Below are positions 4,135 through 41,729 of a stretch of DNA of 64,000 nucleotides, piece after piece (the stretch's first letter is position 1; each line of letters begins with the position of its first letter). Made by a program: the position numbers and the translations under genes. The DNA lies in contig JAEPLS010000001.1 of NCBI GenBank assembly GCA_017644325.1, positions 682,001-746,000 of the forward strand. Direction: 5' to 3'. The stretch is from Prochlorococcus marinus CUG1438. Its GTDB lineage: Bacteria > Cyanobacteriota > Cyanobacteriia > PCC-6307 > Cyanobiaceae. Below the pieces are notes generated by a model. The model saw nothing but the letters and a program-made list of their open reading frames with translations. It was not told the origin of the DNA and ran no database searches.

Positions 4135-4151
4135 CTTTCTTCTAATATGTT

Positions 4152-4220: not shown

Positions 4221-4282
4221 CATTCTTAAATTTAAAGGATGTCCAAGCGTGAATGACAAAAAAGATTTATCACAAGCATTAA

Positions 4283-4546
<264 letters not shown>

Positions 4547-4614
4547 AAGTTAATATTGCTTCTATTCCTTATTAGCAATATTTCAATTTAATTTTTTAAC
4601 TTCAACTGAATCAT

Positions 4615-5585: not shown

Positions 5586-6127
5586 TGCCACTTTTAAATT
5601 CAATTACTACTCCATACGCAGAGGCATTACTTCAAGTTGTGAATGAAAATTCACAAACTGAAGAGATAGTTTCTGAGGTTAAACAACTCTTGGAATTAAT
5701 GAATGATTCCCCTGAATTGGAGAAGGCACTATCCTCTCCAATTTTAGAGACAGATGCTAAAAAGAAAATCATTATTGAAATTTTCTCAAACAAGGTTAAT
5801 TCCTCTTTACTGAATTTCTTAAAATTATTGGCCGATAGGCAAAGAATTGGAATTCTTTCTTCAATTCTTGGTAGGTTTTTAGAGATTTATCGAGAAAATA
5901 GTAATATTGCTTTGGCAACCGTTACTTCTGCCGTCGAGCTTACTGATGAACAGAAAGGTTTAATAACCAAAAAGATCATCAACATTGCTGGAACAGAAAA
6001 ATTAGAACTTGTAACTAAAATCGATCCATCTCTTATTGGTGGTTTCGTCGCCAGTGTAGGATCAAAAGTAATTGATGCTTCCCTTGCTTCACAAATAAGA
6101 AAACTTGGCTTATCCCTCTCCAAGTAA
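5585..6127 (+). CDS. atpH: ATP synthase F1 subunit delta
   Basis: Subunit delta links the peripheral stalk to the top of F1. The 180-residue protein begins with the typical ITTPYAEALLQV and ends with the C-terminal signature DPSLIGGFVASVGSKVIDASLASQI. It overlaps atpF by one base and precedes atpA by 30 bases. Confidence 0.96.
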   Translation: MPLLNSITTPYAEALLQVVNENSQTEEIVSEVKQLLELMNDSPELEKALSSPILETDAKKKIIIEIFSNKVNSSLLNFLKLLADRQRIGILSSILGRFLEIYRENSNIALATVTSAVELTDEQKGLITKKIINIAGTEKLELVTKIDPSLIGGFVASVGSKVIDASLASQIRKLGLSLSK

Positions 6128-6145
6128 CTTTTAAATCAACCTTAA

Positions 6146-7675
<1,530 letters not shown>

Positions 7676-7694
7676 ATTTATTTAAGGAGATACC

Positions 7695-8645: not shown

Positions 8646-8661
8646 GAATGAGATTTAGAAT

Positions 8662-8988
8662 ATGCCTGATTACAATATAAAAGTTCAATTTGAGCAAAAG
8701 ACATTCAGTTTTTTATGTTCTGAAGATCAAGATATTATTTCAGCGGCAAAAATGAATGGAATAGATTTACCAAGTAGTTGTTGTTCAGGAGTTTGTACAG
8801 ACTGTGCATCCATGATATTGGAAGGATCTTTAGATCAAGAAGATGCTATGGGATTAAATGATGATTTAAGGGGAAAAGGCTTTGCACTTTTGTGTGTGGC
8901 ATATCCTAAGTCGGATTTGAATATTGTTATTGGTAAAGAAGTCGAAGATGATTTATATAATGATCAATTTGGTAAATATCAAAAATGA
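8662..8988 (+). CDS. 2Fe-2S plant-type ferredoxin
   Basis: This 108-residue ferredoxin has cluster ligands Cys40, Cys45, Cys48 and Cys78 in the C-x4-C-x2-C...C pattern, the first three within LPSSCCSGVCTDCA. It is not the main photosynthetic ferredoxin: the usual PYSCRAGAC is replaced by PSSCCSGVC and the tail is longer. It starts 16 bases after atpG and overlaps the next small gene by four bases, so it probably shares the atp transcript. Its partner enzyme is not evident. Confidence 0.88.
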   Translation: MPDYNIKVQFEQKTFSFLCSEDQDIISAAKMNGIDLPSSCCSGVCTDCASMILEGSLDQEDAMGLNDDLRGKGFALLCVAYPKSDLNIVIGKEVEDDLYNDQFGKYQK

Positions 8989-9176
8989 AATTAACATCAG
9001 TTGATTTTTATTTAGACTGGCCAGTTTCAATAAAATTAAAAAATTTAAGGAAATTTATCATTTCAAATTTAGAAAAAAAAGGTGATGTAATTAGATGGTC
9101 AATTGTTGATATTCAAAATTCTATTGACCCTTTTGGAACAAAAAAACTTAAAATTAAAGTTGTGTTAGCTAACTAA
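8985..9176 (+). CDS. Conserved hypothetical protein, 63 residues
   Basis: I do not recognise this family. The ATG overlaps the ferredoxin stop (ATGA), so the two proteins are probably made together. The product is basic and soluble-looking with alternating strands and one helix, and no cysteines, so it is not itself an iron-sulfur protein. It may be a ferredoxin accessory protein, which is inference from overlap only. Confidence 0.7.
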   Translation: MKLTSVDFYLDWPVSIKLKNLRKFIISNLEKKGDVIRWSIVDIQNSIDPFGTKKLKIKVVLAN

Positions 9177-9203
9177 AGAATATAACTTTAATTAATTTTA
9201 CTA

Positions 9204-10262
9204 ATGGAAATTTCACCAACAATATTCATTGTTCCAACCGGTATTGGTTGTGAAGTAGGTGGTTTTGCTGGGGATGCGCTTCCTACCGCTAAATTATTAG
9301 CATCGGCAAGTGGATGTTTAATTACGCATCCAAATGTTATGAATGGTGGTAATCTTTCTGAAAAAGATAAAAATATTCTTTATGTTGAGGGTTATAGTTT
9401 AGACCGACTAGCTAAAGGAGAAATCGCTTTAAAAAAGGTAAAGCAACAGAAAATTGGGATAATTTTTGATTCAGCTATTGCAAGTGAAATATTAGTAAGA
9501 CATTTACAAGTCGCTGATGCATGTGTTTCCACTTTAGGGATTAATGTAAATTCTTATGTGGTTACAAAAAAACCATTAAACATAGTTATTGATTCTGATC
9601 CGTCAAAAATGAGTGGTGGCACAATTGAAAATCCTGATACTCTAATTGATGCAGGAAAATGTTTAATAGAAAAAGGAGTTACGGCAATAGCAATTGTGGC
9701 AAAATTTCCAGATGATTCTGATTCGCAAGAAACAAATAGCTATAGAGAGGGGAAAGGGGTTGATCCTATTTCTGGAGTCGAAGCAGTTATAAGTCATGTA
9801 ATAAGCAAATTCTTAAAAGTTCCCTGTGCTCATGCCCCAGCTTTAAATCCAATTGAGTTGAATGAAAATTTAGATCCTCGTGCAGCCGCAGAAGAAATAG
9901 GATACACCTTTTTACCATCAGTGTTGGTTGGTTTAAGCAATGCACCCGACATTGTTGAATTGCCTACTAAACATGAATTAATCACACTACACCCTGATCA
10001 GATTGAATCTATTGTTGTTCCTGATGGTGCACTAGGAGGAGAAGCAGTACTAGCATCTATTGAAAAAGGTTTGAATATAATCTCTGTAAGAAATCAAAAT
10101 ATATTAAAAGTGACCAATGAGTATTTTGATTATCCTAATCTTTTTGAAGTAAACAATTATTTTGAAGCTGCAGGAATAATTCTTGCTATCAGAAAAGGTA
10201 TCAACCTTAAGTCAATTAAACGACCTTTGAAAAACATTCAAAAAATTCCTAATAATTATTAA
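9204..10262 (+). CDS. DUF3326 domain-containing protein
   Basis: This 352-residue protein belongs to the uncharacterised DUF3326 family common in cyanobacteria. Conserved-looking stretches include VPTGIGCEVGGFAGDALP at the N-terminus, GVDPISGVEAVISH and NLDPRAAAEEIGYTFLPSVL. It looks like a soluble, glycine-rich alpha/beta enzyme; no substrate can be assigned. It closes the ATP synthase/ferredoxin gene run and overlaps convergent nadE by four bases. Confidence 0.85.
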   Translation: MEISPTIFIVPTGIGCEVGGFAGDALPTAKLLASASGCLITHPNVMNGGNLSEKDKNILYVEGYSLDRLAKGEIALKKVKQQKIGIIFDSAIASEILVRHLQVADACVSTLGINVNSYVVTKKPLNIVIDSDPSKMSGGTIENPDTLIDAGKCLIEKGVTAIAIVAKFPDDSDSQETNSYREGKGVDPISGVEAVISHVISKFLKVPCAHAPALNPIELNENLDPRAAAEEIGYTFLPSVLVGLSNAPDIVELPTKHELITLHPDQIESIVVPDGALGGEAVLASIEKGLNIISVRNQNILKVTNEYFDYPNLFEVNNYFEAAGIILAIRKGINLKSIKRPLKNIQKIPNNY

Positions 10263-11956
10263 TAAGATATTGCTATGGGAACTCTCCAGTCACTTCCTAA
10301 TGATTGACTGCTTAATTTTAGAATTGGAGGAGCCTGTTTCCTTTTGAATTCCGCTTTTTTTATGAGTGAGATTACTTTGAAAATTAACTCTTTTTTATAA
10401 CCATCTGCTTCAAGTTGCTTAAAATCTTTTTTTTCTTCAATAATTCCTTTAAGAATTTTATCTAGAATGGAATAAGGTGGGAGAGAATCAGTATCTAATT
10501 GATTGGGACCCAATTCGGCACTTGGTGGTTTTTTACGTATATTTTCTCCAATTATATCTGCATTCATATCTAACATATATAATTTTCTATGGTTAATTGA
10601 ATCTTTACTATCAAGCCAATTGCATAATTTAAAAACATTACTCTTATATAAATCCCCTATTACAGATAATCCTCCATTCATATCACCATAAAGTGTGCAA
10701 TATCCTACGGCTAGCTCCGATTTATTACCTGTTGAAAGTAATAAATGCTTTTCTTGATTTGCTAAAGCCATGAGAAGCGTTCCTCTTATTCTTGACTGAA
10801 TATTTTGATTTGTTATTTCAGCCATTTCGAAATTTATTGTTTTTATAAAAGATTCTTCAAAAGAGGTCATCAAGTTTTCAATTGGAATACTTTTGAAATT
10901 TATATTTAACCTTCTAGCTAAATCTTCTGCATCACTCTTTGAATGAGATGTGCTCCATTTAGACGGCATTGAGACGCAATAAATATTATCGCTTCCAAGA
11001 GCAGCCGTCGCAATTGCTGAAACTAGTGCTGAATCAATACCACCGCTTAATCCAATTAGAGCTGTTTTAAATCCGCATTTTTTTGCATAATCTTTAACCC
11101 CAAGGACTAATGCATCAAAAATTGATGACATCTCAGAGCTTTTGAATTTATTTTTTACAGGCTTTGTTTGGTCAATTTCCCAACTGTAGAGTTCTTCTGA
11201 AAAAGATTTTAATTGCTTAATTGTAGATCCATTTTTATCAAGAATAAAACTATTTCCATCAAAAATTAAATTATCATTTGCTCCAATCTGGTTTACATAA
11301 ATCAGTGGCACTTGAAGATATTGAGCAGCAAAACTAGAAACTTTGGATCTTAATTCTAACTTTTTGAAAGTATATGGGGAGGCTGATAAATTTACTAAAA
11401 TATCAACGTTTTTTTTCTTTAAATCAAAAATAGGATTTTTTCTATGAATTCCTCTACCGTCTATATCTTTGTTGACCCATAAATCTTCACATATAGTAAG
11501 GCCAAGTCGCCAAGTTTTGTTTTTAATTTTTTTTACCAATACGGAAACTTTTTTTTCTGATCTAAAGTATCTTTTCTCATCAAATACTTCATAAGTGGGA
11601 AGAATAATTTTACGAGCAATTATCTTCCATTCTCCGCCCTCAAGCAAAGCAATAGAATTATAAAGGTTTGGGAAAAAAGAATCATTTATTATCTCAGCTA
11701 TCCCTACTGCGATTCTTAAGTTTCCATATTTTTTATTTATATCTAAGGCTAATTGATCAAGAATTTTATATTGATTTCTGATTAAATTACTATTTAAAAG
11801 TAAGTCATTTGGAGGATATCCCCATAATGACAATTCTGGAGTAAGAACGAAATCAGCAGAAATTGAGCTTGCTTTTGAAGCTATATCATGTATTTTTTTT
11901 GCATTGCCCTCTAAATCTCCAACGACTGGATTTATTTGAGCAAGTAAAAACTTCAT
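10259..11956 (-). CDS. nadE: Glutamine-dependent NAD+ synthetase
   Basis: NadE amidates nicotinic acid adenine dinucleotide to NAD using glutamine and ATP. The 565-residue protein has an N-terminal nitrilase-type glutaminase domain with Glu41, Lys116 and Cys156 (GLTICEDLW) as the triad, and a C-terminal synthetase domain with the PP-loop SGGIDS (304-309). Its ATG overlaps the nadD stop by four bases, pairing the last two steps of NAD synthesis. Confidence 0.96.
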   Translation of the reverse strand: MKFLLAQINPVVGDLEGNAKKIHDIASKASSISADFVLTPELSLWGYPPNDLLLNSNLIRNQYKILDQLALDINKKYGNLRIAVGIAEIINDSFFPNLYNSIALLEGGEWKIIARKIILPTYEVFDEKRYFRSEKKVSVLVKKIKNKTWRLGLTICEDLWVNKDIDGRGIHRKNPIFDLKKKNVDILVNLSASPYTFKKLELRSKVSSFAAQYLQVPLIYVNQIGANDNLIFDGNSFILDKNGSTIKQLKSFSEELYSWEIDQTKPVKNKFKSSEMSSIFDALVLGVKDYAKKCGFKTALIGLSGGIDSALVSAIATAALGSDNIYCVSMPSKWSTSHSKSDAEDLARRLNINFKSIPIENLMTSFEESFIKTINFEMAEITNQNIQSRIRGTLLMALANQEKHLLLSTGNKSELAVGYCTLYGDMNGGLSVIGDLYKSNVFKLCNWLDSKDSINHRKLYMLDMNADIIGENIRKKPPSAELGPNQLDTDSLPPYSILDKILKGIIEEKKDFKQLEADGYKKELIFKVISLIKKAEFKRKQAPPILKLSSQSLGSDWRVPIAISY

Positions 11957-12531
11957 TCAACTAATTTGGAGGATTCATACAAATTATTCTCCTTAACTAT
12001 ATCTATTAATGACGTTGGTAAATTAGAATAATTAAAATTTAATCTAAAATTAGAACTTGAAGTGTCTGGGATTTTGATGGTTGAAATTTTAAATTTGACT
12101 CTGTAAGTTTCTAACATTTTAAGAGTATTTGATTCGACAGGATATCCCTCTCGTAAAATTATAAAAAAACTTACATCCAAAATAATTTTGTCAAAATTTT
12201 TCCAGTAGAAAATATCTTTAATTAAATCACTACCAATAACAAAATCTAAATTATTAAATTCATAAATTTCTTTACATTTTTCAATTGAATCTACTGCCCA
12301 TTGGCTACTAACACTTTGATTAAATAAAATTTTAGGATTATCTAAATCTTCAATAAGAGTTTTTAATAAATGGCTACGCATTGATATATCTTCTATATGC
12401 TTTTTTTTGGGGTTATTGCTCACATAGCTAATAGTAAAGCCATAAATTCTTGATAATTCCTCAAGAATTTTTTCATGACCGATAGTGGGTGGATCTGCAC
12501 TAGTACCAAATAAAGCAATATTTTTTTCCAT
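11953..12531 (-). CDS. nadD: Nicotinate-nucleotide adenylyltransferase
   Basis: NadD joins nicotinate mononucleotide and ATP to give deamido-NAD, the substrate of NadE encoded next door. The 192-residue nucleotidyltransferase has the phosphate-binding signature GTSADPPTIGH (9-19) and a C-terminal SSSNFR segment corresponding to the ISSTxIR motif. The first motif is a variant of GxFDPxHxGH, with the first His replaced by Thr, so the assignment leans partly on context. Confidence 0.9.
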   Translation of the reverse strand: MEKNIALFGTSADPPTIGHEKILEELSRIYGFTISYVSNNPKKKHIEDISMRSHLLKTLIEDLDNPKILFNQSVSSQWAVDSIEKCKEIYEFNNLDFVIGSDLIKDIFYWKNFDKIILDVSFFIILREGYPVESNTLKMLETYRVKFKISTIKIPDTSSSNFRLNFNYSNLPTSLIDIVKENNLYESSKLVE

Positions 12532-12539
12532 TTTTATAT

Positions 12540-13781
12540 TTAAGGCAGAAAACTCAATAAATTATTATTTAAATTCCTGTCTGATAAATAAATATTAATG
12601 TGGCTAAAAATCTCTGGCTCTTTAAATTTTATATTTTGAATAATCATAAAAGGTTCTATATTAGAAACTTTGCTTCTTATGAATATTTCTTTGGCTGCTA
12701 ATTTACCAAGTATTTTTGTAGACTGAACAGCGATTGCCGCTTGCATTATTGCTACAGGTCCATATGGTAAGAGTGATAGTCCATTAGTAAAAGGTGCGGT
12801 TATTAAAATTACTTTTTTAATAAGATTGAAAGATGTATTAATACCAACTTGAGTTACTCCCAAAAATAAATTATTTATTGATATATTTTTGAATATTTTT
12901 CTTGTAGATTCTTTTTTCAAATTTAACCCATAAATCTTACTTAATTCGCCAATTAAAGCAGTATCTAGCGCAAAACTTCCAGCAACATCAAAAAAAATAA
13001 AAGGATTAAGAGCTACTGCCGATGCCTTAATAGTTGAAAATTTACCAATAGTTGTCTGTGCTAGTTTCTGCCTCCTTTTTAATCTTTGCTCTTTTATTTT
13101 TATGAATAATTTGTCAGCTAATTGAAGAGTATTTAGCGTCAATAATATCTCCCCATATTGATTTATTGTTTTTATTATGAGTTCTTCAAGGTTGTTTTCA
13201 TTATTAATAATTATTGGAATATTAAGATCTTTTGGAATCTTAAACCTTATATTTTCAATAATTTCTGTTAATTCGTTTTTTTTAAAAAGATCGATTTTAT
13301 TCAAAATTATAAATATTTTTTTCCCATTTTTTATGAAGGAATTGATTTCGCTTGCTTCATTTCGATTTATATCTCCTGCAACTACAAATAAAATAAGATC
13401 TGAATTATTTATGTGAGAGTATGTTTTATTTGGAGAGTCAATATTGCAGAAATCAAATCCTGGCGAATCTAATAATTTTACACTTTTAATTGTTTGGACT
13501 TTAAGATTCCATTCTTCAGCTTGTAATTCTCTTGTAGAACCGTTAATAATATCCGTTTTAAATATGTTTTTTCTTAATAAGGAATTTAAAACAGAGGATT
13601 TACCAACTCCTGATTTACCATATACGCCAATTCTGATTTCTTTTTCTTTGAGCCTAAAAAGTTGTTGATTAAAAGAAACTATTTCTTTATTAAAGAAACT
13701 TTTTTCATAGTTGGTAAGGACCATAGTCTCCCACCAATTTTTTAAAAGTAAATAATTTTTATTTAGTTTCAGTTTTTTCAT
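12540..13781 (-). CDS. Membrane-associated GTPase with DUF697-like domain
   Basis: The 413-residue protein has an Era-like GTPase domain with P-loop GKSGVGKSS (about 55-63), G3 motif DSPGFD and G4 motif NKID. A hydrophobic C-terminal half with helices around 255-275 and 310-350 resembles DUF697/YcjF. Such proteins occur at cyanobacterial membranes, but the role is unknown. It lies nine bases upstream of nadD and three bases downstream of the CNNM gene, in one minus-strand block. Confidence 0.85.
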   Translation of the reverse strand: MKKLKLNKNYLLLKNWWETMVLTNYEKSFFNKEIVSFNQQLFRLKEKEIRIGVYGKSGVGKSSVLNSLLRKNIFKTDIINGSTRELQAEEWNLKVQTIKSVKLLDSPGFDFCNIDSPNKTYSHINNSDLILFVVAGDINRNEASEINSFIKNGKKIFIILNKIDLFKKNELTEIIENIRFKIPKDLNIPIIINNENNLEELIIKTINQYGEILLTLNTLQLADKLFIKIKEQRLKRRQKLAQTTIGKFSTIKASAVALNPFIFFDVAGSFALDTALIGELSKIYGLNLKKESTRKIFKNISINNLFLGVTQVGINTSFNLIKKVILITAPFTNGLSLLPYGPVAIMQAAIAVQSTKILGKLAAKEIFIRSKVSNIEPFMIIQNIKFKEPEIFSHINIYLSDRNLNNNLLSFLP

Positions 13782-13784
13782 AAT

Positions 13785-14762
13785 TTATTTTTTCCACCAA
13801 CCAGCTAATACAGATAACACAGCTTCTGCACCAATGATTCCCACGAAGCCACCAAATTCATCTACTACTACTTTCACTCCTTTATGATCCTTGTCAAATC
13901 TTGTTAATAGTTGATCTGCCTTAATCATTTCAGGAATATAGTCCACAGGCTCGCAAATTTCAGATAATAATTTTTTATTTTCCCCGTTAATTAATTTAGC
14001 TAACATATTTTCACGTTTAACTACCCCTTGTATTTTGTCAACTTTATCTCCCAAAATTACCCACCATGGTGAGTTATTTGTCATTATTAGCTTTGAAATC
14101 GCACCAAGATTCGAAGACCCATCGAGACATGGTGCTGCTACCCTAGGGATCATCAAATCTTTAGCTTTTAAATCATTTAATTGAAAAACTTTAAATATCA
14201 TTGCTGCTTCATCAGCTTCAATCAAACCTTTCTGACTTCCAATTTTCGCCATTTGTCTTATTTCTTCTTCATCAGTTGAAATTTCGTTTTCTGCAGTAAT
14301 AACTGGAAATATTTGCTCTATTAGTATTAAGAATGGTCTCATTAAGGTATTTAATATTCTCAGGATTGGAACGGATAATAATGCTATTTGTAATGAAAAT
14401 CTTGTACCAAGAGCTTTGGGTAATACTTCTCCAACTAAAACTACCAGTACATAAAAAACAATTGAAAAGATGGTTAAGCCATAATTACTATTAATAACCA
14501 AAGTGACGTATACCCCTAAAATAAGACTTCCAATTATATTAAATCCATTATTAGTAATAGTAATTACAGTTAACGTTCTTCCAAGATGTTTCCTAAGCTT
14601 TAGGAGTTGATTCGCAGAACTTTTAGGCCTTTGTTTTGAGGCTAATTCTATTATCCTAATCGAATTGACAGCTAAAAAAGCCGCTTCTACTCCCGAACAA
14701 CAAGCCGATCCAACTAATATTATGAGAATAAGTAAAATTAATCCGTAAACACTTGGTTCCAT
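13785..14762 (-). CDS. CNNM/HlyC-type membrane protein with CBS domains
   Basis: A DUF21 membrane domain (about residues 1-140, with SACCSGVEAAFLAVN and VLVGEVLPKALG) is followed by a CBS-pair region containing KAKDLMIPR and VVDEFGGFVGI. Relatives are linked to magnesium or cobalt efflux and membrane integrity. The C-terminal CorC/HlyC transporter-associated domain is missing, giving a short 325-residue form. An in-frame TTG four codons upstream is possible; the ATG at 14762 is preferred. Confidence 0.88.
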   Translation of the reverse strand: MEPSVYGLILLILIILVGSACCSGVEAAFLAVNSIRIIELASKQRPKSSANQLLKLRKHLGRTLTVITITNNGFNIIGSLILGVYVTLVINSNYGLTIFSIVFYVLVVLVGEVLPKALGTRFSLQIALLSVPILRILNTLMRPFLILIEQIFPVITAENEISTDEEEIRQMAKIGSQKGLIEADEAAMIFKVFQLNDLKAKDLMIPRVAAPCLDGSSNLGAISKLIMTNNSPWWVILGDKVDKIQGVVKRENMLAKLINGENKKLLSEICEPVDYIPEMIKADQLLTRFDKDHKGVKVVVDEFGGFVGIIGAEAVLSVLAGWWKK

Positions 14763-14836
14763 TAAAATAAACAAAACACGTAATCTGTTTTAATTTATTC
14801 TTCCATTTTTTTTAAAAACACGCCAATAAACAATTT

Positions 14837-16162
14837 ATGTCCAAATCAAACAATAAAATTTTTGAAGAAAGAAGAGAAATTTTCTTAGAAAAATTGGGAG
14901 GTAAAGCCGCTATTATTCCTGGGGCTAAGCTTGTAAAACATCATGCCGATTGCGAATATCCCTTCAGGCAAGATAGTAACTTTTGGTATTTAACCGGTTT
15001 TGATGAGCCTGATGCGATCGCTCTTTTTTTATCTCATAAGCCAAAGGGGGAGAGATTTATTTTATTTGTTGCTCCTAAAAATGTTATTAGTGAAGTCTGG
15101 CATGGTTTTAGATGGGGTATAGAAGGGGCTGAAAAAGAGTTTAAAGCTGATAAGGCTCACTCAATAAATGAACTAAAAGATTTACTTCCAGGTTATATAA
15201 GTGGTTCAGATGAACTTGTTTTTTCAATTGGAAAGGATCCATCAATCGAAAAAATTATATTAGAGATATTTTCACAGCAACTTGAAAATCGCTCAAGATT
15301 GGGTGTTGGCGCAAATTCTATAAAATCTCCAGAAATTTATTTAAATGAGATGAGATTAATAAAAAGTGAGTTTGAAATCCAGAGAATGAGAGAGGCTATA
15401 AAAATTTCAGCTGAAGCTCATGAACTAGTTAGACAATCTGTTTCATTAAAGAAAAATGAAAGACAAATTCAAGGCCTTTTAGAAGGATTTTTTTTAGAAA
15501 AAGGGGCAAGAGGGCCAGCATATAATTCAATTGTTGCATCAGGAGATAATGCTTGTATTTTACATTACACTTGTAATGACTCTCCACTGAAAAAGGGGGA
15601 TTTATTATTGGTGGATGCTGGCTGTTCATTAACTGATTATTATAATGGTGACATAACAAGAACTTTCCCAATAGGAGGGAAATTTTCTAAAGAGCAAAAA
15701 ATTATTTACGAAATAGTACTTAATGCACAGAAAGCAGCAATTAAAAGCGCCGTAACTGGTTCCAATTCTAGTACTGTTCATCATGTTGCTTTAATAAATC
15801 TTATAGAAGGATTAAAAGAAATTTCTTTATTGAAAGGTAGTACTGAAGAAATAATTCAGAATCAATCATATAAACATCTTTACATGCATCGAACTGGACA
15901 TTGGCTAGGTTTAGATGTTCATGATGTTGGAGCTTACAGAATGGGAGATTATGAAGTTTCTCTCCGACATGGAATGATTCTTACTGTAGAACCAGGTATA
16001 TACATAAGTGATAGGATTCCCGTCCCAGATGGCCAGCCTAGCATTGATGAGAAATGGAAAGGCATTGGTATAAGGATTGAAGATGATATTCTTGTAAAAG
16101 ATACAAACCCAGAAGTTTTAAGTATTGCTGCACTTAAAGAAATTTCTGATTTAGAATTTTAA
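14837..16162 (+). CDS. pepP: Xaa-Pro aminopeptidase
   Basis: PepP removes N-terminal residues preceding proline. The 441-residue protein has an N-terminal domain beginning with FRQDSNFWYLTGFDEPDA and a pita-bread catalytic domain. The dimetal ligands are visible: two Asp in VDAGCS and NGDITRTFP, His in HRTGHWLGLDVHD, Glu in VEPGIYI and Glu in IRIEDD. It is divergent from the CNNM gene with a 74-base gap. Confidence 0.96.
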   Translation: MSKSNNKIFEERREIFLEKLGGKAAIIPGAKLVKHHADCEYPFRQDSNFWYLTGFDEPDAIALFLSHKPKGERFILFVAPKNVISEVWHGFRWGIEGAEKEFKADKAHSINELKDLLPGYISGSDELVFSIGKDPSIEKIILEIFSQQLENRSRLGVGANSIKSPEIYLNEMRLIKSEFEIQRMREAIKISAEAHELVRQSVSLKKNERQIQGLLEGFFLEKGARGPAYNSIVASGDNACILHYTCNDSPLKKGDLLLVDAGCSLTDYYNGDITRTFPIGGKFSKEQKIIYEIVLNAQKAAIKSAVTGSNSSTVHHVALINLIEGLKEISLLKGSTEEIIQNQSYKHLYMHRTGHWLGLDVHDVGAYRMGDYEVSLRHGMILTVEPGIYISDRIPVPDGQPSIDEKWKGIGIRIEDDILVKDTNPEVLSIAALKEISDLEF

Positions 16163-16217
16163 ATTTGACTTATTCGGTTAATAGATTTATTTTTTATAAA
16201 AAGTTAAAAGATCACAA

Positions 16218-16376
16218 ATGAATGAGCCAGATCTATATGATTCAAAACTATCTCAGGCAAGAGGCTTAGCTAGTCAGCTTGGAATGTTTGCAGAAGAAAA
16301 CGATATTCCCAAAGATCTTTGGGATTCATTGGAAGCTACAATTTATGATTTTTATAAAGTTTCTCATGATAGATAA
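16218..16376 (+). CDS. Conserved small protein, 52 residues
   Basis: A short open frame begins with ATG at 16218, 55 bases after pepP. The product is acidic, rich in charged and small residues (MNEPDLYDSKLSQARGLAS at its start), and looks like a single soluble helical protein with no cysteines or membrane segment. Function unknown. Codon use matches its neighbours and the orientation is the same as pepP and the PSRP-3 gene. Confidence 0.65.
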   Translation: MNEPDLYDSKLSQARGLASQLGMFAEENDIPKDLWDSLEATIYDFYKVSHDR

Positions 16377-16483
16377 AAAGTATTTTTAGAAAGCATCAAT
16401 AACTAAAATCAAGAAATTTTGAATAAATCAATCAAAATGTGACCATTAACTGATAAATTATTTATTAAATATTTATTAAGTGA

Positions 16484-16960
16484 ATGACTTCATCGGATAA
16501 GTTAAATCAAAATTCAACAGAAAAAAAAGAAAAGAATAGCGACCAACCGAAAGCTAAAAATTCTTCTCCTAATTCGGGGATGATGGGTGCTTCAGCAGTA
16601 TTAGCAGCAGCGACAATCGATGAAGATGGAGTACCCAGCGGATATACTCCCAAACCTGACGAGGGCAGGTTCATTATTAAAGTTTTATGGTTGCCTGATA
16701 ATGTTGCTTTAGCTGTTGACCAAATAGTAGGAGGAGGCCCAAGCCCACTGACTGCTTATTATTTTTGGCCAAGAGATGATGCTTGGGAAAAATTAAAAAG
16801 TGAACTAGAAAATAAAGGTTGGATTACAGATAACGAAAGAGTCGAAATATTGAATAAAGCTACTGAAGTTATAAATTATTGGCAAGAAGAAGGTAAAACA
16901 AAAAAATTAGAAGAAGCTAAGTTAAAGTTCCCTGAAGTGACTTTTTGTGGAACTGCTTAA
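16484..16960 (+). CDS. psrp3: Ribosomal protein PSRP-3/Ycf65
   Basis: PSRP-3 (plastid-specific ribosomal protein 3, also cS23/Ycf65) is a 30S ribosome component of cyanobacteria and plastids. The conserved core is in the second half: [33 protein letters not shown] and [10 protein letters not shown]. The first 50 residues are a low-complexity, Ser/Lys/Asn-rich extension. It ends two bases from convergent atpC. Confidence 0.9.
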
Positions 16961-16962
16961 AA

Positions 16963-17367
16963 TTAATTTTTTGCAGCTTGAATTCTAGCTTCGGCTTTTG
17001 AAATCTCTTTCAAGGCTTTGATTTTTTCTGGATTTTTTTCATTTTCAGAGAATTTACTCATTGTCAATTTTGCTTCTTGAAGATCTTTCTCAGCATTTTG
17101 AACATTAATTTCAGATCCAACTTCTGCATTGTTAACTAAAACTATTACTTCATCTGATTCAATTTCAGCGAAGCCACCCATTAAAGCTATAGATTTCCAC
17201 TTAGAATTTGTTCTAAGCCTTAAAACACCAATATCAATAGCCGTAACTAAAGAAATATGTCCGGGAAGTACTCCAAGTTGACCAGTGGTACTGGGGAGGA
17301 TCACTTCTTCAGCTTCGCCTTGATAAACATTTTTGTTAGGAGCTAAAACCTTAAGAGAAATTGCCAT
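16963..17367 (-). CDS. atpC: ATP synthase F1 subunit epsilon
   Basis: Epsilon is the small regulatory rotor subunit that inhibits ATP hydrolysis. The 134-residue protein has the N-terminal beta-sandwich with [21 protein letters not shown] and a C-terminal helical hairpin. It follows atpD by 43 bases. The beta-epsilon pair is placed apart from the main operon, as in all cyanobacteria. Some cyanobacterial annotations call it atpE. Confidence 0.96.
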
Positions 17368-17410
17368 TAATTTAAAATTATTTTGGGTTAATTTAAATAA
17401 ATTTAGATAT

Positions 17411-19091
<1,681 letters not shown>

Positions 19092-19403
19092 ATGGCAGCT
19101 GTTTCACTTACAGTCTCTACAGTAAAACCACTGGGAGATAGAATATTTATTAAAGTTTCCGCATCTGAGGAAAAAACTGCTGGGGGCATTCTTTTGCCTG
19201 ATACAGCCAAAGAAAAACCACAGGTGGGAGAAGTTGCTCAGGTAGGTCCTGGGAAACTTAATGACGATGGTTCTCGACAAACTCCAGAAGTGAGTATTGG
19301 CGATAAAGTCTTATACAGCAAATATGCTGGAACAGACATTAAATTGGGAGGAGATGAATATGTCTTGCTCTCAGAAAAAGATATTTTAGCTGTAGTTGGC
19401 TAA
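19092..19403 (+). CDS. groES: Co-chaperonin GroES
   Basis: GroES caps the GroEL cage. The 103-residue protein has the mobile-loop region [14 protein letters not shown] and the C-terminal [16 protein letters not shown]. It precedes groEL by 51 bases in the standard groESL order. Confidence 0.98.
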
Positions 19404-29201: not shown

Positions 29202-29654
29202 ATGAAAAACATTCTGTATAAAATTTTTGAATTCCTAAAGGATCTTTTCCAAAAAATTTCTGAATTTTTAAAAAGAAGATTTTCTGAAGAAGAAGAGAAG
29301 CCAGTTGAAGAAGAGAAGCCAGTTGAAGGAGAGAAGCCAGTTGAAGAAGAGAAGCCAGTTGAAGAAGAGAAACCAGTTGAAGAAGAGATGCCAGTTGAAG
29401 AAGAGAAGCCAGTTGAAGAAGAGAAACCAGTTGAAGAAGAGATGCCAGTTGAAGAAGAGAAGCCAGTTGAAGAAGAGAAGCTAGTTGAAGGAGAGAAGCT
29501 AGTTGAAGAAGAGAAGCCAGTTGAAGAAGAGAAGCCAGTTGAAGGAGAGAAGCCAGTTGAAGAAGAGAAGCCAGTTGAAGGAGAGAAGCTAGTTGAAGGA
29601 GAGAAGCTAGTTGAAGAAGAGAAGCCAGTTGAAGGAGAGAAGCCAGAATTATAA
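29202..29654 (+). CDS. Hexapeptide-repeat protein with amphipathic N-terminal helix
   Basis: The 150-residue protein starts with a 27-residue amphipathic helix (ILYKIFEFLKDLFQKISEF) and then has 20 tandem units of [EG]-E-[KM]-[PL]-V-E, ending GEKPEL. The tail is strongly acidic and Pro-rich, probably extended. The helix could bind a membrane, leaving a charged brush. The 18-base units are nearly identical in DNA, pointing to recent slippage expansion, and length probably varies between strains. Function unknown. Confidence 0.6.
   Translation: MKNILYKIFEFLKDLFQKISEFLKRRFSEEEEKPVEEEKPVEGEKPVEEEKPVEEEKPVEEEMPVEEEKPVEEEKPVEEEMPVEEEKPVEEEKLVEGEKLVEEEKPVEEEKPVEGEKPVEEEKPVEGEKLVEGEKLVEEEKPVEGEKPEL
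29292..29651 (+). repeat. Tandem array of 20 x 18-base units
   Basis: The unit is GAAGAGAAGCCAGTTGAA or a close variant, repeated in frame inside the gene at 29202. Variants cluster (GGAGAG for Gly, CTA for Leu, ATG for Met), consistent with block duplications. Confidence 0.95.
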
Positions 29655-35287: not shown

Positions 35288-35492
35288 AAAACCTCCTTTA
35301 TCTCTTCTACTTCTTAATTATCCTTCTTTTAAATTGAAATTGATAGAGTATTATTACCCGAGTATTAGTGTTTTAAATAAATTTCTTTTTACTCTGTATG
35401 TGTCAACTTGTCCGGATTTAAGATATTTTTTCATTGTTGCTATTGTTTTTTTTTATTAGTCATTTATAAAAGTAAAACAGATTTTAATAATA

Positions 35493-36599
35493 ATGGACAA
35501 AAAAGATTTTGCTAGTTGGTTTGAAAATTTATCTAAAAAAGAAAAAGAAGTAGTGAAATTGAGGTTTGGAATTGATGGGGAAGAACCTGTTACTCTTAAC
35601 GAGATATCATTAAAACTAGGAATTGAAATTAGTAAGGCGAAATTAATTGAAGAAAAATATATTCAAAAGCTAAGAGTCTTATCTGATAAACCCCAATCGA
35701 AACAAACTGAGGAATTTATTGAAAATTCAAAAGAGATTTGTGATTTTACTAGTTTAAAATATCTTCTCAAAAGAAACTTTACTGAAATTGAGAATATTTC
35801 ATTAGGAAATGCTTCAGCAGGTATACCTACCTCTTTCTACGATTTGGATGCGATGACTCAAGGCTTAAGAAGAGGAGATTTGATTGCTTTTGCAGGACGC
35901 CCATCAATGGGTAAAACTTCCTTAGCTTTGCAGTTGGCTAGAAATATTGCAGGTCAAAATCTTCCAGTATGTTTCTTCGGATTTGATTTGAGTAAAGAAG
36001 AATTGGCTTTCAGGTTATTAGGTATGGAGGTTGGTATAGAAATTGGTCGAATAAGAACAGGAAGATTTACTTCAGAGGAGTGGGAACTAGTTAATGAAAA
36101 GAATAAAAAACTTGAATCTCTCCCAATATTTTTAGAAGATAAAAAAGCTATCTCAATTGATGAAATAAAAAATAGATGTAGAAATATATCTAAGACCAAT
36201 GATGAAAAAAGTTTAGGGCTAATAGTAATCGATTCTTATCACATGATGGAGCATTCAACCTTAAATGATTTTCAAGCCCAATTAGAGAGAAATACCAAAG
36301 AGTTGAAGAGTTTAGCAAAAGAGCTCAATGTACCTGTTTTAATTACCGCACCTATATCGCGAGGAGTTGAAGAAAGAGAAAATTGCAGACCGATGTTATC
36401 TGATCTAAGAGATTCTGATGCACTTGAAGATTACGGAGATATTATCGTAATGCTCTATAGAGATGAATATTATGACCCAGATACAGAAGATAGAGGTATA
36501 GCTGAGTTAATAGTTACTACTCACAGAAATGGTCCAGTTGGAACTGTTAAAATGTTATTTGAACCACAATTTGGGCGTTTCAGAAATTTAGTTGCATAA
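35493..36599 (+). CDS. Sigma-70 region 4 HTH fused to DnaB-type helicase C-domain
   Basis: Residues about 12-62 match sigma-70 region 4: LSKKEKEVVKLRFGIDG, then LNEISLKLGIEISKAKLIEEK as the helix-turn-helix. Residues 108-365 are a DnaB C-terminal RecA fold with Walker A GRPSMGKTS (135-143), Walker B LGLIVID (241-247), SRGVEERENCRPMLSDLRDS (289-308) and RNGPVG. The DnaB N-terminal primase-contact domain is absent. The catalytic Glu of DnaB (SLEM) is Asp165 here (GFDL), and the IDYLQLM motif reads IDSYHMM. It is not the main replicative helicase. Role unknown. Confidence 0.85.
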   Translation: MDKKDFASWFENLSKKEKEVVKLRFGIDGEEPVTLNEISLKLGIEISKAKLIEEKYIQKLRVLSDKPQSKQTEEFIENSKEICDFTSLKYLLKRNFTEIENISLGNASAGIPTSFYDLDAMTQGLRRGDLIAFAGRPSMGKTSLALQLARNIAGQNLPVCFFGFDLSKEELAFRLLGMEVGIEIGRIRTGRFTSEEWELVNEKNKKLESLPIFLEDKKAISIDEIKNRCRNISKTNDEKSLGLIVIDSYHMMEHSTLNDFQAQLERNTKELKSLAKELNVPVLITAPISRGVEERENCRPMLSDLRDSDALEDYGDIIVMLYRDEYYDPDTEDRGIAELIVTTHRNGPVGTVKMLFEPQFGRFRNLVA

Positions 36600-37100: not shown

Positions 37101-37859
37101 TTATTTAAATGATCCTGTAATTGTTTTTGGGTAGGGAGTAATCTTCAGATTTAATTTTGAGTCAATAGATCTTTTCGCATCAACAATTGAAACATCTATT
37201 TTACCATCGCCTAAATCTTGCATTTCTTTGTTTGTACAACCATAGTTAATAATTCCCATTCCTGCTGAAAGAGCATATTTTCTTTGAGCACCAGTACCGT
37301 GAGTAGGATCTCCGATTGCATATGCTAAATTCGCCATATCAAGGGTATCTTGCCTTGTTATTCCTATTTCTGAGCTTCCTTCTTTTATAAATGCTCCTGC
37401 TATGCAGTCTGCTTGGAGTTCTAATGCTGGATCTTTTAAGTTTCCTAAAATACCAAAAGCTAATTGAACTGCATGAGCATATTCATGAGCTACAACAAAA
37501 GCAACTGCAGAGGGACCGAATTCATCTGCAAAATATTGAAGCTGCTCTGGAACTAAAAAAATAGTATGTGTCCTTGGGCAATAGGCACTCCCCCCCACTT
37601 CTGCACCAATTGAATAATCACCGCATCCTCCATAAACTTTGGAATCAGCAGCTATCGGTAAAATTTGTGGTGGTCTTAATACATCTTTTAAATCCTCATC
37701 GTTGTCCCATCGAGTATTTAAAAATCTAGTTGTTTTGTCTATATAAGTATATATGTCAGTTTTTTTTAGTCCTTGATTTTTTAAATTGTCAAATATATTT
37801 GCTTTACCTTCCTGCGATAAAAAAATAAAAAATATAGATAGAAAAAATAGTTTTTTCAA
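37101..37859 (-). CDS. Neutral zinc metallopeptidase, YpfJ-like, secreted
   Basis: The 252-residue protein has a signal peptide ending GKA (about residue 20) and the zincin motif HEYAH (125-129), with a likely third ligand in ELQADCIAGAF. Length and motifs fit the putative neutral zinc metallopeptidase family (YpfJ). It is the next gene downstream of the TPR-CHAT gene, after 42 bases on the same strand, suggesting co-expression of two proteases. Confidence 0.88.
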   Translation of the reverse strand: MKKLFFLSIFFIFLSQEGKANIFDNLKNQGLKKTDIYTYIDKTTRFLNTRWDNDEDLKDVLRPPQILPIAADSKVYGGCGDYSIGAEVGGSAYCPRTHTIFLVPEQLQYFADEFGPSAVAFVVAHEYAHAVQLAFGILGNLKDPALELQADCIAGAFIKEGSSEIGITRQDTLDMANLAYAIGDPTHGTGAQRKYALSAGMGIINYGCTNKEMQDLGDGKIDVSIVDAKRSIDSKLNLKITPYPKTITGSFK

Positions 37860-37901: not shown

Positions 37902-40900
37902 TTATTTATTTAACGATTTCCAATCACCACTTAATTGAAATGCTGCCCAATAGTAAGGATGACGTAAGCCAGGAATAGGGTGATTTAAGAAATCTTTTTG
38001 TGTATTTTTTAAAGCCTCTGCTTTACTTTGTCCTTCAATTAATTTTTTATAAAAACTCTCCATAAATCTTGCTGTTCCTGCATCATCAACCTTCCATAGT
38101 GATAATAAGCTTGATGAGGCTCCAGCAACAGAAATTGACCTTTTTAAACCAAATACTCCTTCACCAGATTGGCTTTCGCCTTTACCGGATTCGCAACCGG
38201 AAATAACAACCAATTCAGTCCCCTCCCAATTTAATCTAGTAATTTCAAGTGCTGTAAGATAACCATCATCAGAACTATTAAGATTAGGATTATTAGCTCC
38301 AGCAAGTACAATTCCACTGCGGAGTAAAGGATTTTTTTCTTCTTCATTGGGAATAAAATAAGAATGACTTGCTATATGTAAAATTTTTGGAGAATTAACT
38401 TTTTCTATCTCTAGAGAAGTAGCGTTTTCCTGTAAAAGAAGATCTGCATTAAGAAATTTTGATATTACTCTTCCTTCCTTTTCGGTACCTAATAACTCAT
38501 TCCATTTTTGATTAGATAAAACACCTGATCTTTGTTGCCCAAAATTAATTTTCTTTGAAATTTCGCTAACAACTTTGTTAGTTAAATCAAATTTTGGATT
38601 AGCAACTACTAATGATCTCTCTAAGTTCTTTGATTTAATATTTTTAATTTTTATTAATTCTCTACCAGTAGTTAGTAATCGTATATTTTTATTTTCAAAT
38701 AACAACTTTTGATCTGAGGAACCAATTGCTGCAAAGGGAATTCTATTTAATTCTGAATCTGGTGAAATAAATAATGTATTTACAGAACCTATCCTATTTT
38801 CTATGGGCTTAATAATAAGTTCACCTATTTCTTTCCATAAAGAAATTGCATTTGGTTTTTGATTTTCAGTACTTAAAATTGCATTATTTATTTTTTCTTC
38901 TAAAGGTTTAGCCAATCCAAGATCTATTTTAAAAATTTCTCCATTAGGTTTTAATACAAGAGCTAAATAACTATATTCACCAAAATTATCAGAATAAAAA
39001 TCATAATTTAATACAGGACGAAATTTTTGAAATTCAATAAGAACAGAATTAGCCGGAATGTTCTTTTTTATTTGTTCAATTTCGATTATCTTTGGCTCAA
39101 GTGCAGGTATTTCTGAGTAAAGTTTTTCTTCTAGCTTTTCCTTTTGATTATTTAATTTATCAAAAATATTTTTATCAACACTCACATCAGAGATTTGTGT
39201 GTTGATATTTTTTATTTCTTCTAAAAGCATTTTCTGCTTATTATTTAAGTCAGACAAATTTGATTGATATTTTTCAATGTCTTCTAATAATCCTTGTCTA
39301 TTTAGCCTTGCTTTAAGAGCTAGTTTTTTCCCGTTAGGAAGTTTATCAATTAAGGAAAACAAAATTTCATAGGAATTTAAAACTATTGCTGAGAACTTTT
39401 CTCTATCTTTTTCAGGTAAATATTGGGATTGCTCCTTGGCTAATAAAATTCCTGAATCGATTGTTTTTTCAATATATTTTTCAGCATCAATAGAATCTTT
39501 TTTTTCAATATATAATCTTGCTAAGCTTTGATAAAGTTGAATAATATCTAGGGATAATCTAGATTTATTTAAATATAAACTATGTATTTTTAAACTTTCT
39601 TTTAGATACTCTTCTGATTTTTTTAAATCCCCTTTATATAGATAAACTTCTCCAATAGACTTCAAAGTTGTAAATGATTGATAATTATTTATACCTCTTT
39701 TACTTTTTATAATGAAAAGTGCTTTTTTGTAGACATCTAGTGATTGATCGTATGATTTACTTAAAGCTAAAGTTGCTCCATCAATAATTAACTTAGTTAC
39801 AATTTCTGGATCATTTTCATCGGCATTTTTAGATAGTAAAAAGTTATTACTAAGTTTTCCTTTACCGCCCTCTAATACCAGTAATATACTTTTCAATTTT
39901 TCTAAATAATTTACTTCAAATTTATATTTACGTTTTTTTATTTTGTAGATTTTTAAAGCATTATTAAGCATCTTTTTAGATTCCTTAAAGTCTCCAAGAT
40001 AAAAATAGACTCCTGCTAAATCAGAATAACTTTTTGCTAGTGATAGATCATTTTTATCAAATATTTTGGTTCTTATTTCAAAAGCTATTATTGCATTTTT
40101 TTTTGCATTTCTATAATCTCCAATCTGATTATAGTCATGATGTATTTGCGAATATAAAAATGCTTTGTAATCAGGTATTGAGGTATAAAAATCATTTTGC
40201 TCTTTAGAAATATTTGCTATCTGAATTGCTTTTTTCCTGAGACTTATTGCTTTTTCGTAGTTACCGATCTCTGAGTAAAGTCCAGCTAAATTTTGATAGC
40301 TAGCTGCAGTTTGTATATTTTCTAAGCCAAAAACATTTTCTTTTATTTTAAGTACTCTTTCTTTAATACTTACCACTTCCTTAAAATACAATTTATCAAC
40401 AAAATATTGTCCTCGATAATATAAAAATGATAAACCATCTAATAAATTAGCAACTTCTAAAGAATCTTTGCTAGTTAGTTTTTCTTCAACTTTTATACCT
40501 TTTATTTGGTATTCAATAGCTTTATCATAATTGCCGATTTTTTCAAAATTAAAAGCTATTGCAGAATATGGGAAAGAAGATACTCTGTTATCCTTTTTCT
40601 CAAGCTCAATTATTTTTTTGTAATTTTTAATTATATTTTTATAATCTTTTTTCTCTTCTAATTTTTTTATTTCTTCTGATAATTTAATGATTGTGTTAGA
40701 TATTAAAAATTTTTTTTCTGTAATCTGTCTTTCTTCGTAAAATATTTTATTCTCAATTGCTAATTTGTTTTTTGGATTAATTAAAATCGCTTTATCAAAA
40801 TCATCTATTGCATTTTGAAATTTATTAAGTGCTCCTTTTGATAAACCCCTTGCATTTAAAGCATCATCATTATTCGGATCATTTTTAATAACCACATCAA

Positions 40901-41729
40901 AATCTTTAATCGCTTCTTTGTATTCTTGAACCATATTTCTTGATAAACCTCTCAAAAAATATGCATCAATCTGATTTGGATCTAGCTTAATTAAATTTGA
41001 AAAATCATCTATAGATGCTTCATATTCCCCTAATTCTGATTTTGAAATTCCTCGGTTAAGTAGAGCTTCTTTATATTTTGGATTAATTTTGAGGGCTTTA
41101 CTGTAGTCTTCTATAGAGCCAATAAAATCTTTCAGAGAATATTTTGATAATCCCCTTAAAAATAGAATATTTGTATCATCGCCATTTAAATTTAAGTATT
41201 TTGTAAAATCATCTATTGATTCTTTGAAATCTCCTAGTTTTTGTTTAGCGATACCCCTGAATAAAAAACCTTTATAATAATTAGGGTTTAGTTTTAGTGA
41301 CTTGGAGAAATCAATAATAGATTCCTTAAAATCTCTAATTTCTGTTTTTGCAAGTCCTCTATTAAGAAATGATTGCCAAGATGGATTTATATTGATTGCT
41401 TTTGAATAGTCATCTATAGCCCCTTTAAAATCACCAAGAATATCTTTTACAAATGCTTTATAAAAATATGCATTACTATTAGTTTGATCAATTTTAGATG
41501 CTTTATCAAAAAAAAATATTGCATTTTCGTAGTCTTTTTTTTCTAAACTTTCTAGTCCTTTTTTAACCAATTCATCACTTCTTATAGCTTTTTTATAGAT
41601 TTTATTATCTTGAATATCACTTCTAAAAATTTCTTGTGATTTTAAATATTCATAAGGTGAAAGAATATTTAAAAATATAAAAAAAATAATTGATATTTGC
41701 TTTTTATTTTTTAGTGCAAAAAAAAACAT
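37902..41729 (-). CDS. TPR-CHAT domain protein (caspase-like)
   Basis: The 1275-residue protein has an N-terminal hydrophobic/signal segment, about eight classic 34-residue TPR units (about 50-325), a second TPR set (about 385-720), a coiled coil and a C-terminal CHAT domain. CHAT is a caspase-related peptidase fold; the dyad is His1122 in HIASHSYF and Cys1179 in VISGCESGKGE, counted from the C-terminus. Cyanobacterial relatives are often annotated HetF-like. If exported, it would act in the periplasm next to the YpfJ-type peptidase. Confidence 0.9.
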   Translation of the reverse strand: MFFFALKNKKQISIIFFIFLNILSPYEYLKSQEIFRSDIQDNKIYKKAIRSDELVKKGLESLEKKDYENAIFFFDKASKIDQTNSNAYFYKAFVKDILGDFKGAIDDYSKAININPSWQSFLNRGLAKTEIRDFKESIIDFSKSLKLNPNYYKGFLFRGIAKQKLGDFKESIDDFTKYLNLNGDDTNILFLRGLSKYSLKDFIGSIEDYSKALKINPKYKEALLNRGISKSELGEYEASIDDFSNLIKLDPNQIDAYFLRGLSRNMVQEYKEAIKDFDVVIKNDPNNDDALNARGLSKGALNKFQNAIDDFDKAILINPKNKLAIENKIFYEERQITEKKFLISNTIIKLSEEIKKLEEKKDYKNIIKNYKKIIELEKKDNRVSSFPYSAIAFNFEKIGNYDKAIEYQIKGIKVEEKLTSKDSLEVANLLDGLSFLYYRGQYFVDKLYFKEVVSIKERVLKIKENVFGLENIQTAASYQNLAGLYSEIGNYEKAISLRKKAIQIANISKEQNDFYTSIPDYKAFLYSQIHHDYNQIGDYRNAKKNAIIAFEIRTKIFDKNDLSLAKSYSDLAGVYFYLGDFKESKKMLNNALKIYKIKKRKYKFEVNYLEKLKSILLVLEGGKGKLSNNFLLSKNADENDPEIVTKLIIDGATLALSKSYDQSLDVYKKALFIIKSKRGINNYQSFTTLKSIGEVYLYKGDLKKSEEYLKESLKIHSLYLNKSRLSLDIIQLYQSLARLYIEKKDSIDAEKYIEKTIDSGILLAKEQSQYLPEKDREKFSAIVLNSYEILFSLIDKLPNGKKLALKARLNRQGLLEDIEKYQSNLSDLNNKQKMLLEEIKNINTQISDVSVDKNIFDKLNNQKEKLEEKLYSEIPALEPKIIEIEQIKKNIPANSVLIEFQKFRPVLNYDFYSDNFGEYSYLALVLKPNGEIFKIDLGLAKPLEEKINNAILSTENQKPNAISLWKEIGELIIKPIENRIGSVNTLFISPDSELNRIPFAAIGSSDQKLLFENKNIRLLTTGRELIKIKNIKSKNLERSLVVANPKFDLTNKVVSEISKKINFGQQRSGVLSNQKWNELLGTEKEGRVISKFLNADLLLQENATSLEIEKVNSPKILHIASHSYFIPNEEEKNPLLRSGIVLAGANNPNLNSSDDGYLTALEITRLNWEGTELVVISGCESGKGESQSGEGVFGLKRSISVAGASSSLLSLWKVDDAGTARFMESFYKKLIEGQSKAEALKNTQKDFLNHPIPGLRHPYYWAAFQLSGDWKSLNK

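Follow-up and report, generated by a model that had tools for sequence, protein, structure and literature searches.

Much of the adaptive variation of Prochlorococcus is held in its genomic islands. Outside that setting, systems comparable to the proteins considered here include RepA of RSF1010, a DnaB-like ring without the N-terminal domain whose gene adjoins that of a small DNA-binding regulator, and the ParA/RHH and ParM/ParR partition pairs, in which an ATPase gene lies beside a gene for a DNA-binding protein of ribbon-helix-helix (RHH) type. The tycheposons of Prochlorococcus islands are reportedly the subject of Hackl 2023 (Cell 186:47). PMC10187409 and PMC10872708 touch on tycheposons and on integrases of picocyanobacteria that use tRNA sites, and PMC2784084 describes a Prochlorococcus island with partial tRNA copies. 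A literature search in which subscription journals are thinly covered returned no paper on a fusion of DnaB with sigma-70 region 4; nor, with the same thin coverage, was the protein family set out below described in the titles and abstract openings on Prochlorococcus DnaB or islands, or on DnaB with ribbon-helix-helix proteins.

That family, which we call DnaBC, comprises DnaB paralogues of about 300 aa without the N-terminal domain. Its members have so far been seen only in streamlined picocyanobacteria, often coupled to small DNA-binding domains, and are an instance of a replicative motor domain put to renewed use with the N-terminal collar missing; in one clade, purifying selection persists after loss of catalytic residues. 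Island movement and regulation in Prochlorococcus are poorly understood, and DnaBC offers a concrete, testable candidate for the machinery involved.

A sigma region 4-like domain fused to a DnaB motor core

The gene from which the analysis set out lies in the window, by which we mean the whole stretch of 64,000 nucleotides of Prochlorococcus marinus CUG1438 that was analysed. It is a single open reading frame of 368 codons with an ATG start, laid out as follows:

35493..36599, forward strand: fusion gene, sigma region 4-like helix-turn-helix (HTH) plus DnaB C-terminal ATPase, 368 aa (open reading frame, Pfam, NCBIfam, orthologues)
35493..35690, forward strand: sigma-70 region 4-like HTH, residues 1-66 (PF04545 at E 2e-7; four AlphaFold helices)
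35691..35807, forward strand: linker, residues 67-105 (host DnaB alignment; predicted helix 79-103 where DnaB has its linker helix; low pLDDT)
35808..36596, forward strand: DnaB_C RecA-like ATPase core, residues 106-368 (PF03796 at E 6e-78; Foldseek)

The preliminary description had proposed a sigma-70 region 4 joined to a DnaB C-terminal domain, and Pfam indeed matches both within the one frame: Sigma70_r4 (PF04545) covers residues 10-61 (E 2.3e-7; 30.6 bits against a cut-off of 24.1), bearing out the assignment of residues 1-65 to an HTH of this type, and DnaB_C (PF03796) covers residues 110-365 (E 6.1e-78). The top NCBIfam match of the N-terminal part is the region 4 end of a cyanobacterial RpoD/SigA model. 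Searched with Pfam at E 1, the protein matches neither a DnaB N-terminal family nor, among the 14 families, sigma region 2, the part that binds the -10 element. TIGR00665, the NCBIfam equivalog model for DnaB, scores 322.6 bits against a cut-off of 385.25, its match beginning only at position 136. AlphaFold predicts a four-helix HTH (helices 3-11, 15-25, 35-42 and 46-64; pLDDT block means of 73-90 for residues 1-60), followed by a RecA-type core with pLDDT blocks mostly of 84-94, some falling to 62-75 near the end; the linker region between them (residues 61-110) is poorly modelled, with block means of 37-56, and includes the helix at 79-103. Foldseek matches the model to DnaB (4esv) and G40P (3bh0).

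A fusion of the same 368 codons occurs in three more genomes at 87-89% identity to the window copy, and dN/dS across the whole gene is 0.15-0.22 in 6/6 pairs among the four copies; the fusion is real, neither chance nor an assembly artefact. The gene is under purifying selection. Taken by part, dN/dS in these six pairs is 0.10-0.19 in the ATPase; the HTH, at 0.11-0.69, and the linker, at 0.24-1.06, offer few codons each.

An HTH of promoter-recognition type, as first proposed, is not borne out. The recognition helix reads IEISKAKLIEEKY, as against VSRERVRQLEAKA or near in most of six genus sigma factors compared, and the presumed -35-reading residues of region 4 are changed. This altered helix makes DNA binding by the HTH uncertain; the domain may read DNA or may bind protein alone. 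A tree of region 4 sequences groups the fused HTHs with an HTH-only protein of another genome, G100 (100/99), separately from the SR4 group described below (100/98); for both groups, the origin among sigma factors is left without resolved branching.

A family of N-terminally truncated DnaB paralogues

The window genome (1.63 Mb) also encodes a normal DnaB of 460 aa (L002) and a second protein without the N-terminal domain, L003, which has 297 aa and is DnaB-C only. A profile (A3) built from 17 such proteins found DnaBC at no fewer than 39 places in 37 of 265 Prochlorococcus genomes, the 17 among them, all with E values of 1.2e-142 or below; after a gap, the next match was a host DnaB at 4.6e-137, in frames of 464 aa. 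A search of 300 genomes of the family, 24 of them from the genus, added at least 18 copies in 16 genomes of other genera, counted as frames of about 300-318 aa among the matches listed. These lie in seven genera (g11, g26, g31, g33, g39, g52 and g56), in genomes that are all 2.0 Mb or smaller. Frames of 325 aa in G447 and 335 aa in G412, and longer ones, were left out as host copies or pieces. G447 has two equal-scoring DnaB copies 25 kb apart (C1:1885373 and 1910531), one of them only in the 325-aa frame, and this short copy possibly marks a further truncated DnaB newly arising, in a different genus and a larger genome. One DnaBC copy (G531) carries a stop. With family genomes, phage records and viral contigs covered, DnaBC is known so far only from Prochlorococcus and seven other genera of its family.

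The preliminary description proposed looking for the same fusion elsewhere, and a query of residues 1-106 finds it in four of 266 genus genomes (G000, which is the window genome, G059, G089 and G112), along with the unfused HTH copy of G100. Three weaker matches that were inspected (L103, L104 and L118) proved to be sigma factors, not fusions; at L104:2-1642 (G524:C36), a 547-aa open frame passes from a sigma factor end into FtsZ-like sequence, either a fusion or an assembly join. The fusion was absent among the matches listed from the 300 family genomes, where any example would rank first.

Two trees, of 39 and 51 rows (the latter after removal of twelve, six of near-identical DnaBC and six of host DnaB), separate all proteins lacking the N-terminal domain from host DnaB, their nearest kin, as a single clade with support of 100/100. 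The four fused proteins form a single clade (97/89 and 99/93) that is sister to the HTH-less L069, and the simplest reading of this placement inside the truncated clade would be that loss of the N-terminal domain came first, followed by a single, later gain of the HTH. The gene is a highly derived member of the DnaBC family. It had been suggested that the HTH replaces the DnaB N-terminal domain: the one is present and the other missing, as claimed, but the trees speak against a direct exchange. Nor is the gene an ordinary DnaB paralogue in its relatives, the case in which the original interpretation was to have been given up. Two further ideas were rejected. A six-stop match upstream of L069 that might have been an HTH remnant was ruled out by reading the upstream frame. 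A phage origin of the ATPase sits badly with the phage records, in which all 1,253 matching entries of 50,697 lie below 60% identity (47.1% for the best of 20 listed), against 56% over 302 residues for host DnaB; viral contigs, scanned twice by pattern, yielded no relative.

Active-site changes

The motifs of the ATPase are as follows:

35895..35918, forward strand: Walker A, GRPSMGKT, from residue 135 (sequence)
35985..35987, forward strand: Asp165 replacing the DnaB catalytic Glu (alignments; Asp in 11/11 of clade A, Glu in 20/20 host DnaB)
36225..36248, forward strand: Walker B region, VIDSYHMM, from residue 245 (sequence, host alignment)
36345..36365, forward strand: motif H3, TAPISRG, Gln replaced by Pro287 (Pro in 11/11 of clade A, Gln in 20/20 host DnaB)
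36405..36431, forward strand: ssDNA-binding loop, LRDSDALED where the host has LRESGSIEQ, with Asp309 in place of Gly (host alignment)
36519..36536, forward strand: arginine-finger motif, THRNGP, Arg345 kept, Lys replaced by Thr343 (host alignment; in clade A, Arg 8/11, Thr 3/11)

The names and roles of the catalytic Glu, H3 Gln, ssDNA loop and arginine finger in DnaBC we presume to be those of the DnaB literature. The initial reading of this site holds in each particular: Walker A, Walker B and the arginine motif (with Arg345) are kept; IDSYHMM stands where DnaB has IDYLQLM; and Asp165, within FGFD, aligns to the Glu of the solved DnaB 2vye and of host DnaB. Thr343, two residues ahead of the finger Arg, is Lys in host DnaB.

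How far these changes extend was seen in an alignment of 20 host DnaB with 57 DnaBC, 39 of them from the genus and 18 from other genera, in which the fusion belongs to an 11-member genus clade (clade A) and the other genus groups number 13 and 15. The catalytic Glu has become Asp throughout clade A (11/11); it is Glu in 13/13, 15/15 and 17/18 of the other DnaBC groups and in every host protein (20/20). The H3 Gln is likewise Pro in 11/11 of clade A, and Gln in the other 46/46 DnaBC and all 20 hosts, with both residues kept in 45/46 DnaBC outside clade A. Loss of the ssDNA-loop Gly is far wider, at 39/39 genus and 16/18 other-genera copies, against retention in 20/20 host DnaB. The finger Arg is kept in 8/11 of clade A, 12/13 and 13/15 of the other genus groups and 18/18 from other genera; the Lys of Walker A and the Asp of Walker B persist in 57/57. 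The word helicase, used of the core in the preliminary description, is consequently doubtful, with the fused clade lacking catalytic Glu and H3 Gln alike and the loop Gly gone from the whole genus set.

Linked small DNA-binding genes

Many DnaBC genes are genetically coupled to small DNA-binding proteins of three kinds: RHH-like, sigma region 4 plus RHH-like, and sigma region 4 alone. The first kind is found in the other genera, where 11 of 18 loci have an RHH-like gene 75-111 nt upstream of DnaBC and on its strand, the remaining seven being without one. The encoded proteins have 59-80 aa, apart from one 38-aa piece, and five of the 11 seeded the RHH profile, which at E 1e-3 matches nothing else in the 284,751 bases of these loci. 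A short shared stretch lies upstream of the RHH genes. Directly downstream of one RHH-DnaBC pair is a gene for a protein with nine DUF4116 stretches (L198:2376-3344), and genes resembling it follow DnaBC in L202 and L203.

Within Prochlorococcus the partner is SR4, in the window genome a 139-aa protein with a sigma region 4-like stretch, encoded 52 bp downstream of L003, that scores 16.1 bits with Pfam Sigma70_r4, under the cut-off of 24.1. Counting weak and broken copies, SR4 occurs at 18 places in 200 genus genomes, 13 of them within 2.2 kb of a DnaBC gene. Conversely, with a region 4 profile partly seeded with these very proteins, a region 4-like frame lies within 2.2 kb of 12/35 unfused genus DnaBC, and none was found at 2.2-8 kb; the other 23 loci, where some contigs end nearby, have no such neighbour and no RHH match (0/23). 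Of the four fusions, two (L066 and L067) have in addition an SR4 gene on the opposite strand, at a distance of 216 bp. Short forms of 80-85 aa without the second domain occur by L081, L082 and L083, and a 199-aa protein by L077 matches Sigma70_r4 clearly (E 3e-10).

In 14 long SR4 proteins the RHH profile has a match to the C-terminal half, with E values between 6e-8 and 3e-6, its one other match being a chance frame (E 0.93); in profile-profile comparison, the RHH-like proteins and the SR4 C-terminal half agree with a probability of 96%. Pfam RHH_1, tried on three partner proteins, gave 20.8 bits (cut-off 20.5), 16.2 bits and no match. AlphaFold models SR4 with a confident HTH and two C-terminal helices, without a strand, and Foldseek returns sigma region 4 for this model, weakly (best E 0.02).

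Island setting and neighbours

DnaBC lives in variable islands, and the possible link to mobile DNA that had been raised for the gene was in this respect rightly judged. A fragment of about 46 bp from the 3' end of tRNA-Pro lies in the stretch around ten of 39 genus DnaBC genes (L065, L068, L071, L072, L075, L158, L162, L163, L172 and L178). The 40-bp core of this fragment occurs nine times in the window genome (eight exact, one with three mismatches), on one strand and within 34.7 kb, and the reversed core, as a control, has no match there; one of these copies could be the actual tRNA gene. The second DnaBC of this genome and its SR4 sit between two fragment copies. In L065 (G000:C1:979500-999400), fragments from 617 to 19241 divide the island into stretches of about 1-5 kb, a layout that resembles an integron, but with a tRNA-derived repeat. 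By a hand count without a control set, 22/39 genus DnaBC have a tRNA, a fragment or a tRNA-like 3' end no more than 5 kb away. For eight loci of clade C the distance to a tRNA-like 3' end, which we take to be ssrA, is 2.6-4.7 kb.

A tyrosine recombinase or its remnant, sought with one recombinase as query, is present in the stretches of 5/39 genus loci, at 1.0-1.5 kb from DnaBC in L080, L158 and L075 (in L075 an 86-aa remnant); in L158 it spans 4662-5915, beside a fragment at 6083, and no whole tRNA is called. DnaBC stretches look chromosomal, with housekeeping genes flanking several. No clear iteron array was seen in 8 upstream regions, the most being three 12-nt copies at 83-100% (L213).

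The fusion gene itself occupies two chromosomal sites. In G112 (L068) it lies between tRNA-Pro and the first fragment, with no recombinase match; in G000, G089 and G059 it is in a different island, whose flanking genes are shared with the window at about 23-27 kb. Near the window copy there is no tRNA fragment, recombinase match or SR4. A neighbouring gene is broken:

35354..35434, reverse strand: remnant, 26 aa, of a gene that in G089, G059 and G112 has its full 51 aa and is divergent from the fusion

The 51-aa gene (MKNYIISGQVDTYRIK...) recurs beside DnaBC or SR4 at L067:9947-10099 and six other loci, and two copies had no Pfam match. A conserved protein of 143-173 aa (MAKDFRNIEYH...) recurs beside DnaBC and TPR genes, at L065:10797-11315, a copy without a Pfam match, and as homologues in L070, L075, L082, L083, L159, L166 and L172. 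Elsewhere in the window, 37902-41729 (reverse strand) encodes a 1275-aa protein rich in TPR-like repeats, the C-terminal part of which by eye resembles a CHAT protease, and is adjoined by a gene with a Zn_peptidase match (37101-37859); 29202-29654 (forward strand) encodes a 150-aa protein made mostly of a VEEEKP / VEGEKP repeat.

Proposed mechanism and alternatives

The reading we put forward, and on which we are evenly poised, is that DnaBC is a DnaB-derived ring ATPase of islands, tethered to DNA or RNA polymerase, of which the fused form is a nucleotide-binding, weakly hydrolysing switch. DnaBC would still form a RecA-type ring, the core being kept and the linker region kept, if poorly modelled. 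An adaptor would tether this ring to particular DNA or, through sigma region 4, perhaps to the RNA polymerase flap, and an ATP-driven change in the ring might then act on whatever is bound there, in the control or maintenance of the island. For the fused clade, the changes of Glu to Asp and Gln to Pro, with the Lys of Walker A and the Asp of Walker B intact, lead us to expect nucleotide binding with poor hydrolysis; such a ring may serve as a DNA-anchored scaffold or nucleotide switch instead of a processive fork helicase. The fusion, then, suggests a DNA-anchored molecular switch more than an ordinary helicase.

The tethered ring is supported by the fusion as a Rosetta-stone link, taken with the RHH and SR4 linkage and the island setting, and by catalytic losses that are fixed in clade A (11/11) with an ATPase dN/dS of 0.10-0.19 in the fused four. 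It is weakened by the 23/35 genus and 7/18 other-genera loci without a partner gene; by the altered recognition helix of the sigma region 4 part; by an SR4 second half modelled without a strand and RHH_1 above its cut-off in 1/3 proteins; by dN/dS reaching 0.69 in the HTH and 1.06 in the linker, and a finger Arg that is Thr in 3/11 of clade A; and by a window locus without tRNA fragment, recombinase match or SR4. One must also consider that genes of hot-spot islands can be mere passengers. Were DnaBC such a passenger or a decaying island gene without specific function, its linkage would reflect shared hot spots, and its patchiness (at least 39 places in 37/265 genomes), the 51-aa neighbour broken in the window and the stop in the G531 copy would all be natural; with dN/dS of 0.15-0.22 in the fused gene and a near-constant spacing to RHH genes across genera, however, we find this very unlikely.

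More specific roles for the pair can be drawn from replication and partition. Tyrosine recombinases within 1.0-1.5 kb in L080, L158 and L075 (the 86-aa remnant), tRNA-derived repeats, and a catalytic Glu and H3 Gln kept in 45/46 DnaBC outside clade A would suit the replication module of an integrative element, in which origin marking would fall to the small protein, unwinding to DnaBC as a helicase that loads itself, in the manner of RSF1010 RepA, and both to the fused form. We judge this unlikely: the ssDNA-loop Gly is lost (39/39 genus and 16/18 other-genera copies), the fused clade lacks the catalytic residues, a recombinase match (one query) occurs at just 5/39 loci, and neither a clear iteron array in 8 upstream regions nor, in two pattern scans, a relative in viral contigs was found. 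The order of a small DNA-binding gene and then an ATPase, on one strand with short spacing, is also that of a partition- or maintenance-like pair, here convergent and derived from DnaB instead of ParA; to this we attach only slight probability, as the stretches look chromosomal, several with flanking housekeeping genes, and an array of binding sites was not seen in the 8 upstream regions. A third role concerns the fused clade, which might brake the host replicative helicase, its weak subunits mixing with DnaB or competing for loader or primase under the aim of the HTH. Identity to host DnaB of 56% over 302 residues, and active-site losses fixed in a clade whose fold is conserved, are in keeping with such a brake, which is nonetheless distinctly improbable, since the N-terminal collar that helps DnaB assemble is missing and the many DnaBC with intact active sites and linked DNA-binding genes would be left unexplained.

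Returning to the tethered ring, a bolder claim, which we regard as doubtful, is that DnaBC and its RHH or sigma region 4 partner make up a two-part DNA machine of a new class, with a collar-less helicase motor aimed by interchangeable DNA- or RNA-polymerase-binding adaptors and controlling the expression, movement or copy number of islands; the fusion would physically link the transcription apparatus to a replication-type ring.

Comparison with known systems

Some DnaBC loci, with tRNA-derived repeats and a tyrosine recombinase nearby, bear a possible resemblance to the tycheposons and tRNA-site islands mentioned in PMC10872708 and PMC10187409; the window locus has neither feature. A PADLOC scan of five proteins gave no specific match to a known anti-phage system and, for the fusion, generic partial matches alone (mad8 at 5e-7 in the ATPase core, MzaA at 2e-4 in the region 4 part). 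With sigma-70 region 4 the fusion shares the four-helix HTH, above the Pfam cut-off, and it departs from sigma-70 in lacking regions 1-3, in its changed recognition helix and in the attached ATPase. With the replicative helicase DnaB (460 aa in the host; solved as 4esv and 2r6a) it shares the C-terminal RecA-like core, Walker A and B and Arg345, whereas the N-terminal domain is missing with an HTH in its stead, Glu has become Asp, the H3 Gln has become Pro, the ssDNA-loop Gly is lost and TIGR00665 stays below its cut-off (322.6 against 385.25). Set against the ParA and ParM partition pairs, the DnaBC ATPase is DnaB-derived, neither ParA nor actin-like. The likeness to RSF1010 RepA is one of description and not of compared sequences, and DnaBC stands closest to the host's own DnaB.
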